Assembly (NCBI GenBank): GCA_937968125.1
Contig: CALBUI010000284.1
Coordinates: forward strand, 1 to 32,871
Length of the DNA stretch: 32,871 bases
Reading direction: 5' to 3'
Source of the DNA: an uncultured Anaerolineales bacterium
Lineage (GTDB): Bacteria > Chloroflexota > Anaerolineae > Anaerolineales > UBA4823
Position numbers and translations under genes: made by a program. Under the pieces are notes generated by a model. The model had not been told where the DNA came from. It did no database searches and saw only the letters and a list, made by a program, of their open reading frames with translations. Each line of letters opens with the position of its first letter. The first letter of the stretch is position 1. Shown here one piece after another: positions 17,703-27,732 of this stretch.

Positions 17703-17737
17703 CTGACAAGTTTCATCATAATATTTGGGTGGTTAAA

Positions 17738-19141
17738 ATGGTTCAATCTCCATCAGCAGAAAAAGATGTCATTTTCTTCATTGTCGATATCAGCGGGTAT
17801 ACGCGCTTTATCGTCTCCAACGAAAAGGAAATGGTGCACAGCCAGATCATCATCCGCGATCTGATCAACACCATCATCTCCGAAATCAAGGCGCCTATGC
17901 AGGTCATTCGCCTGGAGGGAGATGCGATTTTCCTCTATGTTGATAAGGGAGACCCGCTCGTTCGCTGGGAACTTGTACAACCAACATTGCTTGAGACCCT
18001 GATCACTTTTTTCCGGGTGTTTTCAAACAAGATCTCTGAATTGACTCTGCACAAAATCTGCAACTGCAACGCCTGCAATAATGTCGACCGACTCAAATTG
18101 AAAATTGTCGCCCACAGCGGCAAGACGATGTTCTTCAACATCAACGATATTTTGGAACTGTCCGGGACAGCTCCGATTATTATCCATAGGCTGTTAAAAA
18201 ACTCTGTGACATCCGATGAATACGTCTTGATGACCGAATCAGCCTTCGAAGACCTTATGCTTCCCAAGGAAGAGGTGGAAACCAGTTCTGAGTCCTATGA
18301 TGAACTGGGCACAATCGATACATTTATTTATTATCCTCCTCCAACTGAACCTTACCAGCCAGTTGGAGGTTCGCAGTACCCCCAGATTTTCGTTGATACT
18401 TTGCGAGCCGAAGTAAAGAGAGAATATGCTGTTGTTGCCAAAGATCCTCAGCAGGGCTTTCATTTCCACACCGGTCGCCGGTTGGCAGAACTGCTGGACT
18501 ATGATAAAGAACTTCTGGATCAATTCCCTGAGAAGGTGATTCAATCTTTTGCTGGTACTGGTAATTTGCATAAACTGGGCAAGATCAAACCTGGGGAATA
18601 CGTCCTGGATATTGGCTGCGGTGCAGGCCTGGATAGCCTAATCGCGGCTCGAGAATCTGGATCTGAGGGCAAGGTTATTGGAGTTGATATGACCTCCGAA
18701 ATGATCGAGAAGGCTCGCCAAAATGCGGTTGAGGCAGGGGTGGAAAATGTCGAGTTTATTGAGGACTACAGTGAAGAATTACCCGTCCCCACGGAATGGG
18801 CTGATATCATTATCTCCAACGGCGCCATCAACCTTTCCCCCGATAAGGACCGGGTCTTCAGTGAAATGTTCCGGGTTTTAAAACCTGGAGGGCGTTTGCA
18901 AATAGCTGATATCCTGGTCCAGAAGGCGGTTCCCGACAGCGCCAGGAATAACCTTGATTTGTGGGCCGGTTGAATTGCCGGTGCTCTGCTGGAAGCAGAG
19001 CTTGAAGCGAAAGTCTCCGCAGCTGGATTCCAGGATTTCGAGATCACCTGGCGGGATGACATATATCGCGATGCACCTCAGAAGTCTGAGGCGGCTGCCT
19101 TCGGTACACTGGGTATCACCTACCGGGCAAGAAAACCCTAG
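17738..19141 (+). CDS. Candidate selenoprotein: DUF2652 cyclase-like domain fused to ArsM-like SAM methyltransferase
   Basis: 467 aa if the in-frame TGA at 18971-18973 is read as selenocysteine (codon 412). The N-terminal domain (about 5-200) resembles DUF2652, a class III cyclase-like fold, with VDISGYTRFI and RLEGDAIFLY plus a CNCNAC cluster. The C-terminal domain (about 265-467) is a class I methyltransferase with SFAGTGN (270-276), VLDIGCGAGLDS (from 289), GVDMTSEMIEKAR, ISNGAINLSPDK (Gly362) and VLKPGGRLQIADI. The frame continues past TGA as IAGALLEAELEAKVSAAGF and ends with TAG at 19139-19141, a normal methyltransferase C-terminus. ArsM relatives have Cys exactly at the TGA. ATG 17738 with GGTGG 5 bases upstream is chosen over GTG 17729. 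If TGA were a stop, the protein would lose its last 55 residues. Confidence 0.85.
18971..19001 (+). promoter_or_regulatory. Selenocysteine UGA codon and bSECIS-like hairpin
   Basis: After TGA (18971-18973) come nine bases, then a perfect stem GCTCTGC (18983-18989) / GCAGAGC (18995-19001) around the loop TGGAA (18990-18994). The apical loop starts 16 bases after the UGA and has G as its second base. This meets the published bacterial SECIS rules: a loop 16-37 bases downstream, 3-14 bases long, with a G in its first two positions. The hairpin lies inside the reading frame, as is normal for bacteria. It would recruit SelB with Sec-tRNA. The selA, selB and selC genes are not in this window. Confidence 0.75.
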
Positions 19142-22907: not shown

Positions 22908-25697
22908 CTACACCACAATATTAACCAATTTCCCCGGAACCAGGATCACCTTTCGCGGTTCATTGTCAGCCATATACTTTGCGATGGCAGGCGAGCTCAG
23001 CGCCAGCTCCTTCGCCTCCTCCTCCCCGATATCCACTGGCACGGAAATGCGGTCCCTGACCTTGCCGTTAACTTGTACGACCAATGTGATCTGCTCTTCG
23101 GCGGCCGCGGCTTCATCAACCTCGGGCCAGGACTGGGAGTGGATAGAATAAGGTTTGCCGAGATTCATCCAAATTTCCTCCGCCACGTGTGGGGCAACGG
23201 GCGCCATCATGCGCAGATAAATATCCACCGCCTCATCCCAGGCCTCCGAACCAGCGGCGCCGTTTTCATGAGCTTTCTGCATCTCGTTGAGCAACTCCAT
23301 CAAAGCGGAGATAATAGTGTTGAACTCGAAGGTCTCGAAGTCGTGAGTCACCTGACGCAGAGTCTGGTGCACTTTCCGGCGCATAGCACGGGTTGTCTCT
23401 GCTGATGGATTCCCGTTCTGACCCACTTCGCTGAACAGGTTCCAGATGCGGCGGATCCAACGCACTGTGCCCTCGATCCCGCTGCTGTTCCAGGGACCTC
23501 CTAAATCCCAGCGGGCGAAGAACATCAGGTAAGCCCGCACCGTATCCGCGCCGTAGCGGGCAACCAGCTCATCCGGGGCGATCACATTCCCACGGCTCTT
23601 GGACATCTTTTCAGAATCCTCTCCCAGGATGATGCCTTGATTGCGCAGCTGTGACATGGGCTCTGGACCCTGCATGATGCCCATATCACGTCCGGCTTTA
23701 TGAAAGAATCGGGTGTAGATCAGGTGCATGGTGGCATGCTCGATCCCACCTGTGTAAATATCGACCGGCATCCAGTAGTCATATTCGGCTGGATCAAATA
23801 GTCCTTGATCATAATCTGGGCTCAGATAGCGCAGGTGGTACCAGGAGGAGCACATAAAGGTGTCCATGGTATCGGTCTCACGCTCGGCAGGCTCGTCACA
23901 AATCGGGCAGGTGGTATGTTTCCAAGTTGGGTGCAGCTTTAAAGGACTCTCGCCTGTCGGCAGCCACTCGACGTCATCGGGCAGTAAAACTGGGAGTTGA
24001 TCATCTGGCACCCGGACTGCTCCATGCTCAGGACAGTAAACAATCGGTATTGGAGTTCCCCAATAACGCTGGCGAGAAATCAACCAGTCTCGCAAGCGAT
24101 AGTTAATGGCTGCCTTGCCCACCCCGAGTTCCTCCAACCATTCATTCACCTGCTGAACGGCTACATCTCCAGTTGTTCCGCTGAACTCACCAGAATGGAT
24201 CATCGTGCCGTATTCATGATGATAAAGAGCATCCCGGTAGAACTCTTCCCCCCAGAGCATTTCCATTAAGGTGTGGGCACCGGCAACCTGGGGTTCCAAT
24301 TTTTTGCAGCGCACTAAAATACGCTGTTCGCTTTCCTGCGAATCCCATTCGATGATCCCGTCACTGAAGATAAAGTACCAGCCAGTACCAACTACCTCAT
24401 TCCAGGCATCCTTTTGCAGGTATGCAGAAATTGTCTCGAGATACGCATCCAGTTTATCCACTGGAATTGTTATCAACAGACCTCGTTCGTCCTCTTCGCT
24501 TGAGATACCCAGCTCATTTAGCGCCTGGGCAAATCCTGGTTTCGTCGTTCCTATAGGTGCGAAGGATTTGGTCAAGCCATCCGAGCGATCGATGACTGGT
24601 AAGATCGGCAAACCAAACTTCAAGGCGAACTCGAAGTCCCGTTCATCGTGGGCTGGAACGGCCATGATTGCCCCGGTTCCATATGTCATCAAGACATAAT
24701 CTGCGATCCAGATTGGAATGCGTTCACCATTAACCGGATTGATCGCGTAGCCACCAGTGAACACTCCCGACTTTTCTTTTTCCGCAGATTCGCGCTGGAT
24801 ATCCGTCTGGCGCACAGCCTGGTGAACGTATTCATGGACCAGCTCGCTTTGCTCAGTCGTAGTGATCTTCTCAACTAACGGGTGCTCCGGAGCCAGGACC
24901 ATAAACGTAGCGCCCCACAGGGTATCGGGACGAGTGGTGAAGACGGTGATGCGCGCCTCATCATCAGACAGTCCATCTGAATCGGCGGTGAAATGCACTT
25001 CAGCGCCGTCACTGCGCCCGATCCAGTTCGTCTGCAAAGTGACGACACGATCCGGCCAATCGATAGTTGAAAAATCCAATAACTCCTCCGCATAGGAAGT
25101 AGTGCGGAAGAACCACTGTTCAAGATCTTTCTTAATCACTGGCGTGCCGCAGCGTTCACAATGCCGGTCCTCCCCCCACACCTGTTCCCGTGCCAGGGTA
25201 GTATTGCAATTAGGGCACCAATCCACCGGCGACATTTTGCGATATGCAAGATCATTTTCAAACAGCTTGTTGAAGTACCACTGCGACCAGTGGTAGTACT
25301 TTGGATCGGAGGAGACCGCTTCACGCCGCCAATCGTACATGGAGCCCATTGAGCGCAGCTGCTCACGCATGCGGACGATATTTGCATAGGTCCATTCTTT
25401 GGGGTGAATGTTATTTTTAATGGCCGCATTCTCAGCCGGAAGTCCGAAGGCGTCAAACCCCATGGGGAACATGACATTGAAGCCGCGCATGCGCATATAA
25501 CGCGCCCGGGCATCGGATGGTGTCATGGCATACCAGTGACCGATATGCAGATCACCGGAGGGATATGGCAGCATGGTCAAGGCATAAAATTTTGGCTTTG
25601 ATTTATCAATTTCGGCATTGTATAAGCCATCTTCTTCCCAGTGTTTCTGCCACTTAGGTTCGATCTCTCCCGGATTGTATTCTTGTTTTTCAGGCAT
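22908..25697 (-). CDS. leuS: Leucyl-tRNA synthetase
   Basis: 929 aa class I synthetase that charges tRNA-Leu, somewhat longer than the common 800-880 aa. LPYPSGDLHIGHW has the HIGH motif at 51-54, and KMSKS is at 697-701. A zinc-ribbon-like region CPNCNTT...CERCG follows the Rossmann start. The editing domain (CP1) shows FTTRPDTLWGATF and GTGAIMAVPAHDERD. The anticodon-binding domain ends QVNGKVRDRI...VPGKLVNIVV. A second cysteine pair in CPICDE suggests another zinc site. GGAGAG sits about 6 bases before the ATG. A TATAAT on the minus strand at 25782-25777 could provide its own promoter. The remains of a second, different leuS with a T-box lie 1 kb upstream. Confidence 0.97.
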   Translation of the reverse strand: MPEKQEYNPGEIEPKWQKHWEEDGLYNAEIDKSKPKFYALTMLPYPSGDLHIGHWYAMTPSDARARYMRMRGFNVMFPMGFDAFGLPAENAAIKNNIHPKEWTYANIVRMREQLRSMGSMYDWRREAVSSDPKYYHWSQWYFNKLFENDLAYRKMSPVDWCPNCNTTLAREQVWGEDRHCERCGTPVIKKDLEQWFFRTTSYAEELLDFSTIDWPDRVVTLQTNWIGRSDGAEVHFTADSDGLSDDEARITVFTTRPDTLWGATFMVLAPEHPLVEKITTTEQSELVHEYVHQAVRQTDIQRESAEKEKSGVFTGGYAINPVNGERIPIWIADYVLMTYGTGAIMAVPAHDERDFEFALKFGLPILPVIDRSDGLTKSFAPIGTTKPGFAQALNELGISSEEDERGLLITIPVDKLDAYLETISAYLQKDAWNEVVGTGWYFIFSDGIIEWDSQESEQRILVRCKKLEPQVAGAHTLMEMLWGEEFYRDALYHHEYGTMIHSGEFSGTTGDVAVQQVNEWLEELGVGKAAINYRLRDWLISRQRYWGTPIPIVYCPEHGAVRVPDDQLPVLLPDDVEWLPTGESPLKLHPTWKHTTCPICDEPAERETDTMDTFMCSSWYHLRYLSPDYDQGLFDPAEYDYWMPVDIYTGGIEHATMHLIYTRFFHKAGRDMGIMQGPEPMSQLRNQGIILGEDSEKMSKSRGNVIAPDELVARYGADTVRAYLMFFARWDLGGPWNSSGIEGTVRWIRRIWNLFSEVGQNGNPSAETTRAMRRKVHQTLRQVTHDFETFEFNTIISALMELLNEMQKAHENGAAGSEAWDEAVDIYLRMMAPVAPHVAEEIWMNLGKPYSIHSQSWPEVDEAAAAEEQITLVVQVNGKVRDRISVPVDIGEEEAKELALSSPAIAKYMADNEPRKVILVPGKLVNIVV

Positions 25698-26690: not shown

Positions 26691-27012
26691 TCAATCTGGT
26701 AATGAAGGCTTGGGAAGGATGTTCATGATTTTACCCGGTACGTAATTCACCTCGACGGCCTGGCCATTTCCAGTCATCTCTTTGATTTTCGGCAGGTCGA
26801 AAGCAGCCGTTTCGACATCTGCACGTCCAGCCGATGAAGGTAGTTCGACCAGTCCTCTCACCTTGCCATCGATTTGGATGGGAATATGGGAAAAAATCTA
26901 AACAATAATATTTGGGTTTATCTTCAGATTCAACAACGTGGTACAGCTTTCGAGCCTGCCATTCACGCCGCCATTTCGATTCAATATTTTTCGGATTGTA
27001 TTGTGGGTACAT
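26691..27012 (-). pseudogene. leuS: Degenerate second leucyl-tRNA synthetase gene with large internal deletion
   Basis: The ATG at 27012 opens MYPQYNPKNIESKWRREW and continues to YYCLDFFPY, the LeuRS N-terminus just before the HIGH motif. The sequence then jumps, near 26881-26890 and in another frame, to IPIQIDGKVRGLVELP and EVNYVPGKIMNIL, the LeuRS C-terminal end, stopping at 26691-26693. About 800 codons are missing, including HIGH, the editing domain and KMSKS. The junction is out of frame, so no fusion product is made. The N-terminus differs clearly from the intact leuS downstream, so the lost gene was another LeuRS type, not a recent duplicate. Its T-box leader is still present upstream. 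Confidence 0.88.
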
Positions 27013-27209: not shown

Positions 27210-27490
27210 AAAAAAACCCTCCGCTGTTCAGGGACGAAGGGTCTGGCTCCGTGGTACCACCCTGCTTGCCATTTTCTATCAAGAAAATAAGCCGCTTAGG
27301 TTCGCAATAACGGGCGAAACCCGCCGCCAGCTATCCTTACCGCATCGACTTTCACTGACGGAGCCTGCCAATATTCCGGCTCTGCAGGCGAGTTCAACCT
27401 TTTTTAGTGCTCCAGGGACACCTTGCTGGGCTCACACCTCGCTCTCCCAACTCGCTGCTGGATGGCTTACTACTCCTGCATTGACTGATT
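27210..27490 (-). promoter_or_regulatory. T-box leader, leucine-specific, upstream of the leuS pseudogene
   Basis: On the minus strand the T-box core AGGGTGGTACCACGG lies at 27263-27249, followed by a terminator. Its stem ACCCTTCG/CGGAGGGT is followed by seven T (27210-27242). Stem I is closed by GCAGCGAGTT pairing with AACTCGCCTGC, and has the usual GGGAGAGCGAGG-type internal elements. The candidate specifier GAA-CTC (27392-27390) reads a Leu codon, which fits leuS. Uncharged tRNA-Leu would favour antitermination. Positions 27013-27209, between the terminator and the pseudogene, hold no gene that I can see. The regulated gene itself is destroyed, but the element looks intact. Confidence 0.88.
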
Positions 27491-27564
27491 ATTTACTTGT
27501 TAATTATCCATTGCCAGTTTGTATAACACACTTCTGAAAACTGGTCTCGAATTGACTTAATTTG

Positions 27565-27637
27565 TGGACCCAGAGGGATTCGAACCCTCGACCTTCTCAA
27601 TGCCATTGAGACGCGCTCCCAGCTGCGCCATGGGCCC
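27565..27637 (-). tRNA. tRNA-Ala (anticodon GGC)
   Basis: 73 bases, CCA not encoded. The acceptor GGGCCCA pairs with TGGGTCC (one G-T pair), discriminator A. The D arm is GCGC/GCGC, the anticodon stem TCTCA/TGAGA with loop ATGGCAT (anticodon GGC), and the T arm GAGGG-TTCGAAT-CCCTC. It reads GCC codons. Confidence 0.95.
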
Positions 27638-27660
27638 TTTGATTATACATCCCGGACCAG

Positions 27661-27732
27661 TGGACCTGGCGGGATTCGAACCCGCGACCTCTTCAGTGCG
27701 ATTGAAGCGCGCTCCCACTGCGCTACAGGCCC
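27661..27732 (-). tRNA. tRNA-Ala (anticodon CGC)
   Basis: 72 bases, CCA not encoded. The acceptor GGGCCTG pairs with CAGGTCC, discriminator A. The anticodon stem is CTTCA/TGAAG with loop ATCGCAC (anticodon CGC), and the T arm GCGGG-TTCGAAT-CCCGC. It reads GCG codons. It lies 23 bases upstream of the GGC tRNA and shares its promoter. Confidence 0.95.

Follow-up and report, generated by a model that had tools for sequence, protein, structure and literature searches.

The window, i.e. the whole stretch of 32,871 nucleotides that was analysed, comes from an uncultured Anaerolineales bacterium (contig CALBUI010000284.1) and contains one reading frame that extends from a GTG at 17729 or an ATG at 17738 to a TAG at 19139-19141, with a TGA at 18971-18973 as its single internal stop. 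An earlier note on this DNA, according to which the frame is broken by the TGA alone and then goes on for 55 codons, was exact on this point. Numbered from the ATG, the GTG being an alternative in-frame start, the TGA corresponds to residue 412. The features of the gene, with the evidence for each, are the following:

17738..19141, + strand: whole gene, encoding a predicted selenoprotein of 467 residues (frame with one TGA; coding constraint on both sides of the TGA)
17744..18352, + strand: N-terminal DUF2652 domain (class III cyclase-like), plus linker (Pfam PF10851; alignment with 15 DUF2652 genes)
18353..19138, + strand: C-terminal ArsM-like SAM methyltransferase domain (PF13847, NF008823, AlphaFold fold matches)
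18971..18973, + strand: UGA predicted to be read as selenocysteine (Sec), at the place of AS3MT Cys206 (homologue alignments)
18983..19001, + strand: bSECIS-type hairpin, stem 18983-18989/18995-19001, loop 18990-18994 (covariation, RNAalifold, loss in the Cys members)
18974..19138, + strand: 55 codons 3' of the UGA (kept in all Sec homologues; third-position differences dominate)

The linker between DUF2652 and the methyltransferase has no in-frame ATG, so the two are most naturally read as a single fused protein. The genome, a MAG of 80% completeness and 4.8% contamination, has its Sec-machinery genes on other contigs. The neighbouring genes in the window give no hint of function, and no ars genes were seen beside the methyltransferase gene within it. 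Elsewhere in the window, the reverse strand carries at 26884-27003 a remnant of a second leuS, whose 40 residues share 42% identity with the N-terminal end of the product of the intact leuS (22908-25697). It is preceded by a T-box-like leader (27227-27494, reverse strand; 48.9 bits, below the Rfam gathering score of 93), and to judge from their sequences the two are what is left of a decayed synthetase gene whose leader has been partly kept. Two adjoining genes at 27564-27732, also on the reverse strand, are both tRNA-Ala by ARAGORN (anticodons GGC and CGC).

The TGA aligns with a cysteine that is invariant across all the Cys homologues and that corresponds to the catalytic Cys206 of human AS3MT. 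The earlier note had placed it at the conserved cysteine of the family, and the homologues indeed have either Cys or TGA at this codon. Within the subfamily, 37 further genes from the same phylum share the TGA and five have a cysteine codon (TGT or TGC); the resulting 38 Sec genes were chosen for having the TGA and their count is therefore not a rate. This column is the sole invariant Cys/Sec column in the subfamily, and the predicted Sec would lie in a UxxG motif, here U-I-A-G. Compared with the family member L032, the 55 codons after the TGA show 8, 10 and 29 differences at codon positions 1, 2 and 3, a pattern similar to that of the 191 codons before it (59, 37 and 123). This distribution indicates that the sequence downstream of the TGA is under coding constraint.

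The UGA is followed by a hairpin whose stem (GCTCTGC/GCAGAGC, 18983-18989 with 18995-19001) forms seven of seven pairs and whose loop, UGGAA, lies 16 bases after the UGA and has a G as its second base, in agreement with the usual bSECIS rules. The 7-bp stem, the loop, its distance from the UGA and its G had been proposed in the earlier note, and the stem moreover covaries. It is intact over its 7 bp in 32 of the 38 Sec genes, in which GCTCTGC/GCAGAGC is exchanged for GCTCTAT/ATAGAGC, GCGCTGC/GCAGCGC or GCCCTGC/GCAGGGT. Among 24 distinct sequences, 95.8% of the cells are paired in the stem versus 20-52% in slid registers, three stem pairs are altered on both sides and the covariation score is not attained by any of 500 shuffles; related sequences may beat shuffles even without structure, and better controls are given by the slid registers and by the Cys members. 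RNAalifold recovers the identical stem unprompted. The subfamily's five Cys members have just 3-5 of the 7 stem pairs left, and the retention of the hairpin in the Sec genes together with its decay in the Cys genes would be explained by a Sec system only. Two family members, L032 and L097, have no G at either of the first two loop positions with the stem as drawn, and a scan with Rfam near the TGA returned no selenocysteine-related match.

The components that the earlier note had named (selA, selB, selC and selD) are all present in the same genome: a tRNA-Sec (73.3 bits, anticodon UCA) and SelA, SelB and SelD, each above the curated cut-off. The SelD gene has an in-frame TGA of its own in the context CAGUASK, which matches the catalogued motif UxxK. 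Among 40 related genomes, 38 have a SelB that passes the cut-off, whether they carry the Sec enzyme or not, so its presence is necessary and not diagnostic. Altogether, the reading of the TGA as selenocysteine is strongly supported by the alignments, the hairpin and the gene content, and the actual insertion of Sec at this UGA is very likely.

The C-terminal domain matches PF13847 with 117 bits, and the closest models and folds of this half of the protein are those of arsenite methyltransferases. Its score with NF008823 (240.9 bits) is below the curated cut-off of 263, and strong partial matches to NF041536, NF041537 and NF047649 (209-228 bits) are far below the respective curated cut-offs (460-575). 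The AlphaFold model (pLDDT 88) has ArsM structures as its best fold matches (Z 23-25), and the window protein is accordingly predicted to adopt the ArsM-type SAM methyltransferase fold. It resembles 4fr0, 6cx6 and 5evj (ArsM/AS3MT) in fold, at Z 23-25 and 30-35% identity, and its Sec falls on the conserved Cys in their ECLAGAL motif. Contrary to them, it lacks two of the three arsenic ligands and it stops where their chains extend past the aligned part. The term "ArsM-like" used in the earlier note thus stands for the fold and the family, but with the two other arsenic-binding cysteines gone, arsenite methylation is not to be assumed.

In human AS3MT, arsenic is bound by Cys61, Cys156 and Cys206; the mutants C156S and C206S show no activity in either step, and C61S shows none in the first one; for dimethylarsenite, binding to a single cysteine is described (PMC3877260). 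The window protein keeps the ligand place at the Cys206 position, as Sec, whereas Gly stands at the Cys156 position (SNGAINL) and Thr at the Cys61 position (FAGTGN), so that both of these ligands are absent. The three positions were surveyed in 127 homologues, including the window protein, which was counted with its TGA. The 47 homologues with a TGA at the 206 position have 45 Gly, one Ser and one Cys at the 156 position, and 45 V/T/M/L, one unreadable residue and one Cys at the 61 position. Both cysteines belong to L195, from the Bacillota genome G975, which has its TGA at the same place and keeps the Cys61 and Cys156 positions; by its sequence, this protein is of a Cys-Cys-Sec arsenite methyltransferase type and an exception to the lone-Sec pattern. 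Sec therefore does not require the loss of its partners; the two go together in nearly all the TGA-bearing homologues found here. The 80 homologues without a TGA comprise 69 with the full triad, one with the 156 and 206 cysteines and an unreadable 61 position, and 10 lone-Cys proteins, among them haloarchaeal plasmid proteins. Because Cys61 and Cys156 are missing from nearly all the TGA-bearing homologues, the lone-Sec subfamily is probably not one of ordinary arsenite methylases.

In a tree of 60 proteins, the Sec sequences fall into three groups and three label changes are forced. The clade of the window protein is supported at 100/99 and has 16 rows, one of them a Cys member. L075, L076, L078 and L080 make up a second clade (100/100), and L077 and L079 a third one (100/100), nested among Cys proteins. 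The nearest named relative, L016, is a Chloroflexota bacterium, which makes this phylum the probable one of the host as well. Taken with the ligand pattern, the loss of the partner ligands thus accompanies Sec in three groups. In the window's clade this loss is common to Cys members too, and the tree does not fix the order of the Sec gain and the Cys losses. The Sec reading taken together with the lone-Sec anatomy is a conclusion that these comparisons allow us to hold with high confidence.

A related gene on the Ilyobacter polytropus plasmid pILYOP01 (L120, 3001-3726) has an annotated product, WP_013388987.1, that stops at a TGA in the Sec position while the homology runs on; this methyltransferase is probably a lone-Sec member from Fusobacteriota that the annotation has missed. 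As to gene neighbourhoods, 10 of 33 related loci (L077, L079, L121, L130, L134-L138 and L140) have a gene of one and the same cluster near the ArsM-like methyltransferase, with both Sec and Cys versions of the latter. This gene is OsmC-like where checked, one member being confirmed by Pfam, and OsmC is annotated beside the methyltransferase in three haloarchaeal plasmids. These neighbours, which are absent from the window, give a hint of thiol or peroxide chemistry in the related loci.

The N-terminal ~200 residues match PF10851 (DUF2652) with 94.9 bits, the gathering cut-off being 22.1. In an alignment with 15 DUF2652 genes, the domain keeps D..GYT (DISGYT), EGDA and CxCxxC. DISGYT and EGDA are taken here to be the two metal-binding Asp motifs of class III cyclases, an assumption that also rests on the published account of the family; both aspartates expected of a class III nucleotide cyclase would thus be in place. 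That account (PMC4886424) relates the DUF2652 family to the class III nucleotide cyclases. The window protein has the same domain as the DUF2652 proteins described there (PF10851), with both Asp motifs and the CxCxxC, but these are said to consist of this one domain, with a polyketide-cyclase domain added in one case, and a methyltransferase fusion is not reported. The unusual cyclase-like fusion, which the earlier note had remarked on, was seen in this genome only, with no second example. Three more DUF2652 genes of the same genome (L157, L158 and L160, on contigs G000:C48, C39 and C199) have a different C-terminal half of ~200 residues, for which reason DUF2652 looks like a movable module. 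A seemingly stand-alone DUF2652 gene from the same genus (G301), 93% identical, was considered and set aside: it enters an N stretch after residue 113, the sequence past this stretch is unrelated, and the fusion is neither supported nor contradicted by it.

The UxxG fusions of ArsM reportedly go back to Haft and Tolstoy 2025. In the literature searched, which did not cover this primary account, no description of the lone-Sec subfamily or of the DUF2652-methyltransferase fusion was found. The earlier note had guessed that Sec-containing methyltransferases were already proposed, and a Sec arsenite methyltransferase with a UxxG motif is in fact catalogued (NF008823/PRK11873, WP_011987699.1; PMC13188914, citing Fomenko et al. 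2007), as are three NCBIfam UxxG ArsM fusions, NF041536 (DUF2284), NF041537 (AhpD) and NF047649 (UXPK-star), listed with two or three Sec (PMC13188914). Like NF008823, the window protein is an ArsM-family SAM methyltransferase with Sec in UxxG; it differs in scoring below the cut-off, in the loss of Cys61 and Cys156 and in having DUF2652 in front, the ligand positions of WP_011987699.1 being outside this comparison. With the three fusions it shares an ArsM-like domain with UxxG joined to a second domain, but it has one Sec, and its partner is DUF2652 and stands in front, not behind. The Sec-ArsM kind is thus already known, the ligand loss being the interesting part, and new as far as these comparisons go, and the fusion a single observation. 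Since the catalogue was compared without ligand positions, some of its Sec ArsM proteins may share the lone-Sec pattern.

Several scenarios may explain these features. In the one favored here, the ribosome would read the UGA at 18971 as Sec by means of SelB, the tRNA-Sec and the hairpin at 18983-19001, and translation past it would complete the 467-residue protein. The methyltransferase site would then offer one chalcogen, Sec or sometimes Cys, at the AS3MT Cys206 position. As arsenite binds three ligands, a one-ligand substrate fits better: most likely the selenolate alone would hold a soft, singly bonded substrate beside SAM, from which the methyl group would move to the held substrate. Among the possible candidates are mono-coordinated arsenicals, species of selenium, tellurium or mercury, and organic electrophiles or thiols. 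DUF2652 would act, at a guess, as a regulatory or nucleotide-binding module fused in this lineage. That the substrate is other than arsenite is slightly favored; its identity and the chemistry of the enzyme can be proposed only weakly. A bolder form of this scenario, which we hold tentatively and at slightly short of an even chance, is that of a widespread, ArsM-derived lone-Sec subfamily that would no longer methylate arsenite, whose Sec would be the sole ligand for another soft substrate and which in one lineage would have been fused to a controlling cyclase-like domain.

Alternatively, the protein could be an arsenite methyltransferase of the ordinary type, with Sec in place of one arsenic-binding Cys and with small cell thiols supplying the missing ligands. 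In family and fold it matches arsenite methyltransferases best, Sec-ArsM proteins with UxxG are catalogued, the Cys-Cys-Sec protein L195 exists in Bacillota, and free thiols could stand in for the lost ligands. Nevertheless, Cys61 and Cys156 are lost, the corresponding AS3MT mutants lack activity (C156S in both steps, C61S in the first; PMC3877260), the score is below the NF008823 curated cut-off and no ars genes adjoin within the window, so we regard this explanation as a serious one, if not a probable one. A real stop, be it from a truncated pseudogene or a sequencing error, would agree with the usual meaning of TGA, which ends 9 of the 26 main ORFs in the window, but it is very improbable given the coding constraint past the TGA (8/10/29), the covarying hairpin with its 95.8% pairing and the same TGA in 37 genes of other genomes, which makes a sequencing error untenable. 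Translation of UGA as Trp, or a general readthrough without the Sec system, is equally hard to credit: any sense reading of the TGA leaves the frame open, yet UGA is a normal stop in the neighbouring genes, the homologues have Cys and never Trp, and the hairpin persists in Sec genes but has decayed in Cys genes.

Gene callers that halt at the TGA would cut such proteins ~55 codons short and drop their catalytic residue, so that the subfamily is easily overlooked; few of the catalogued selenoproteins are methyltransferases. In three separate clades, the predicted Sec occurs nearly exclusively in proteins devoid of the partner cysteines, which raises the question of what one selenolate may do where ArsM uses three thiolates.
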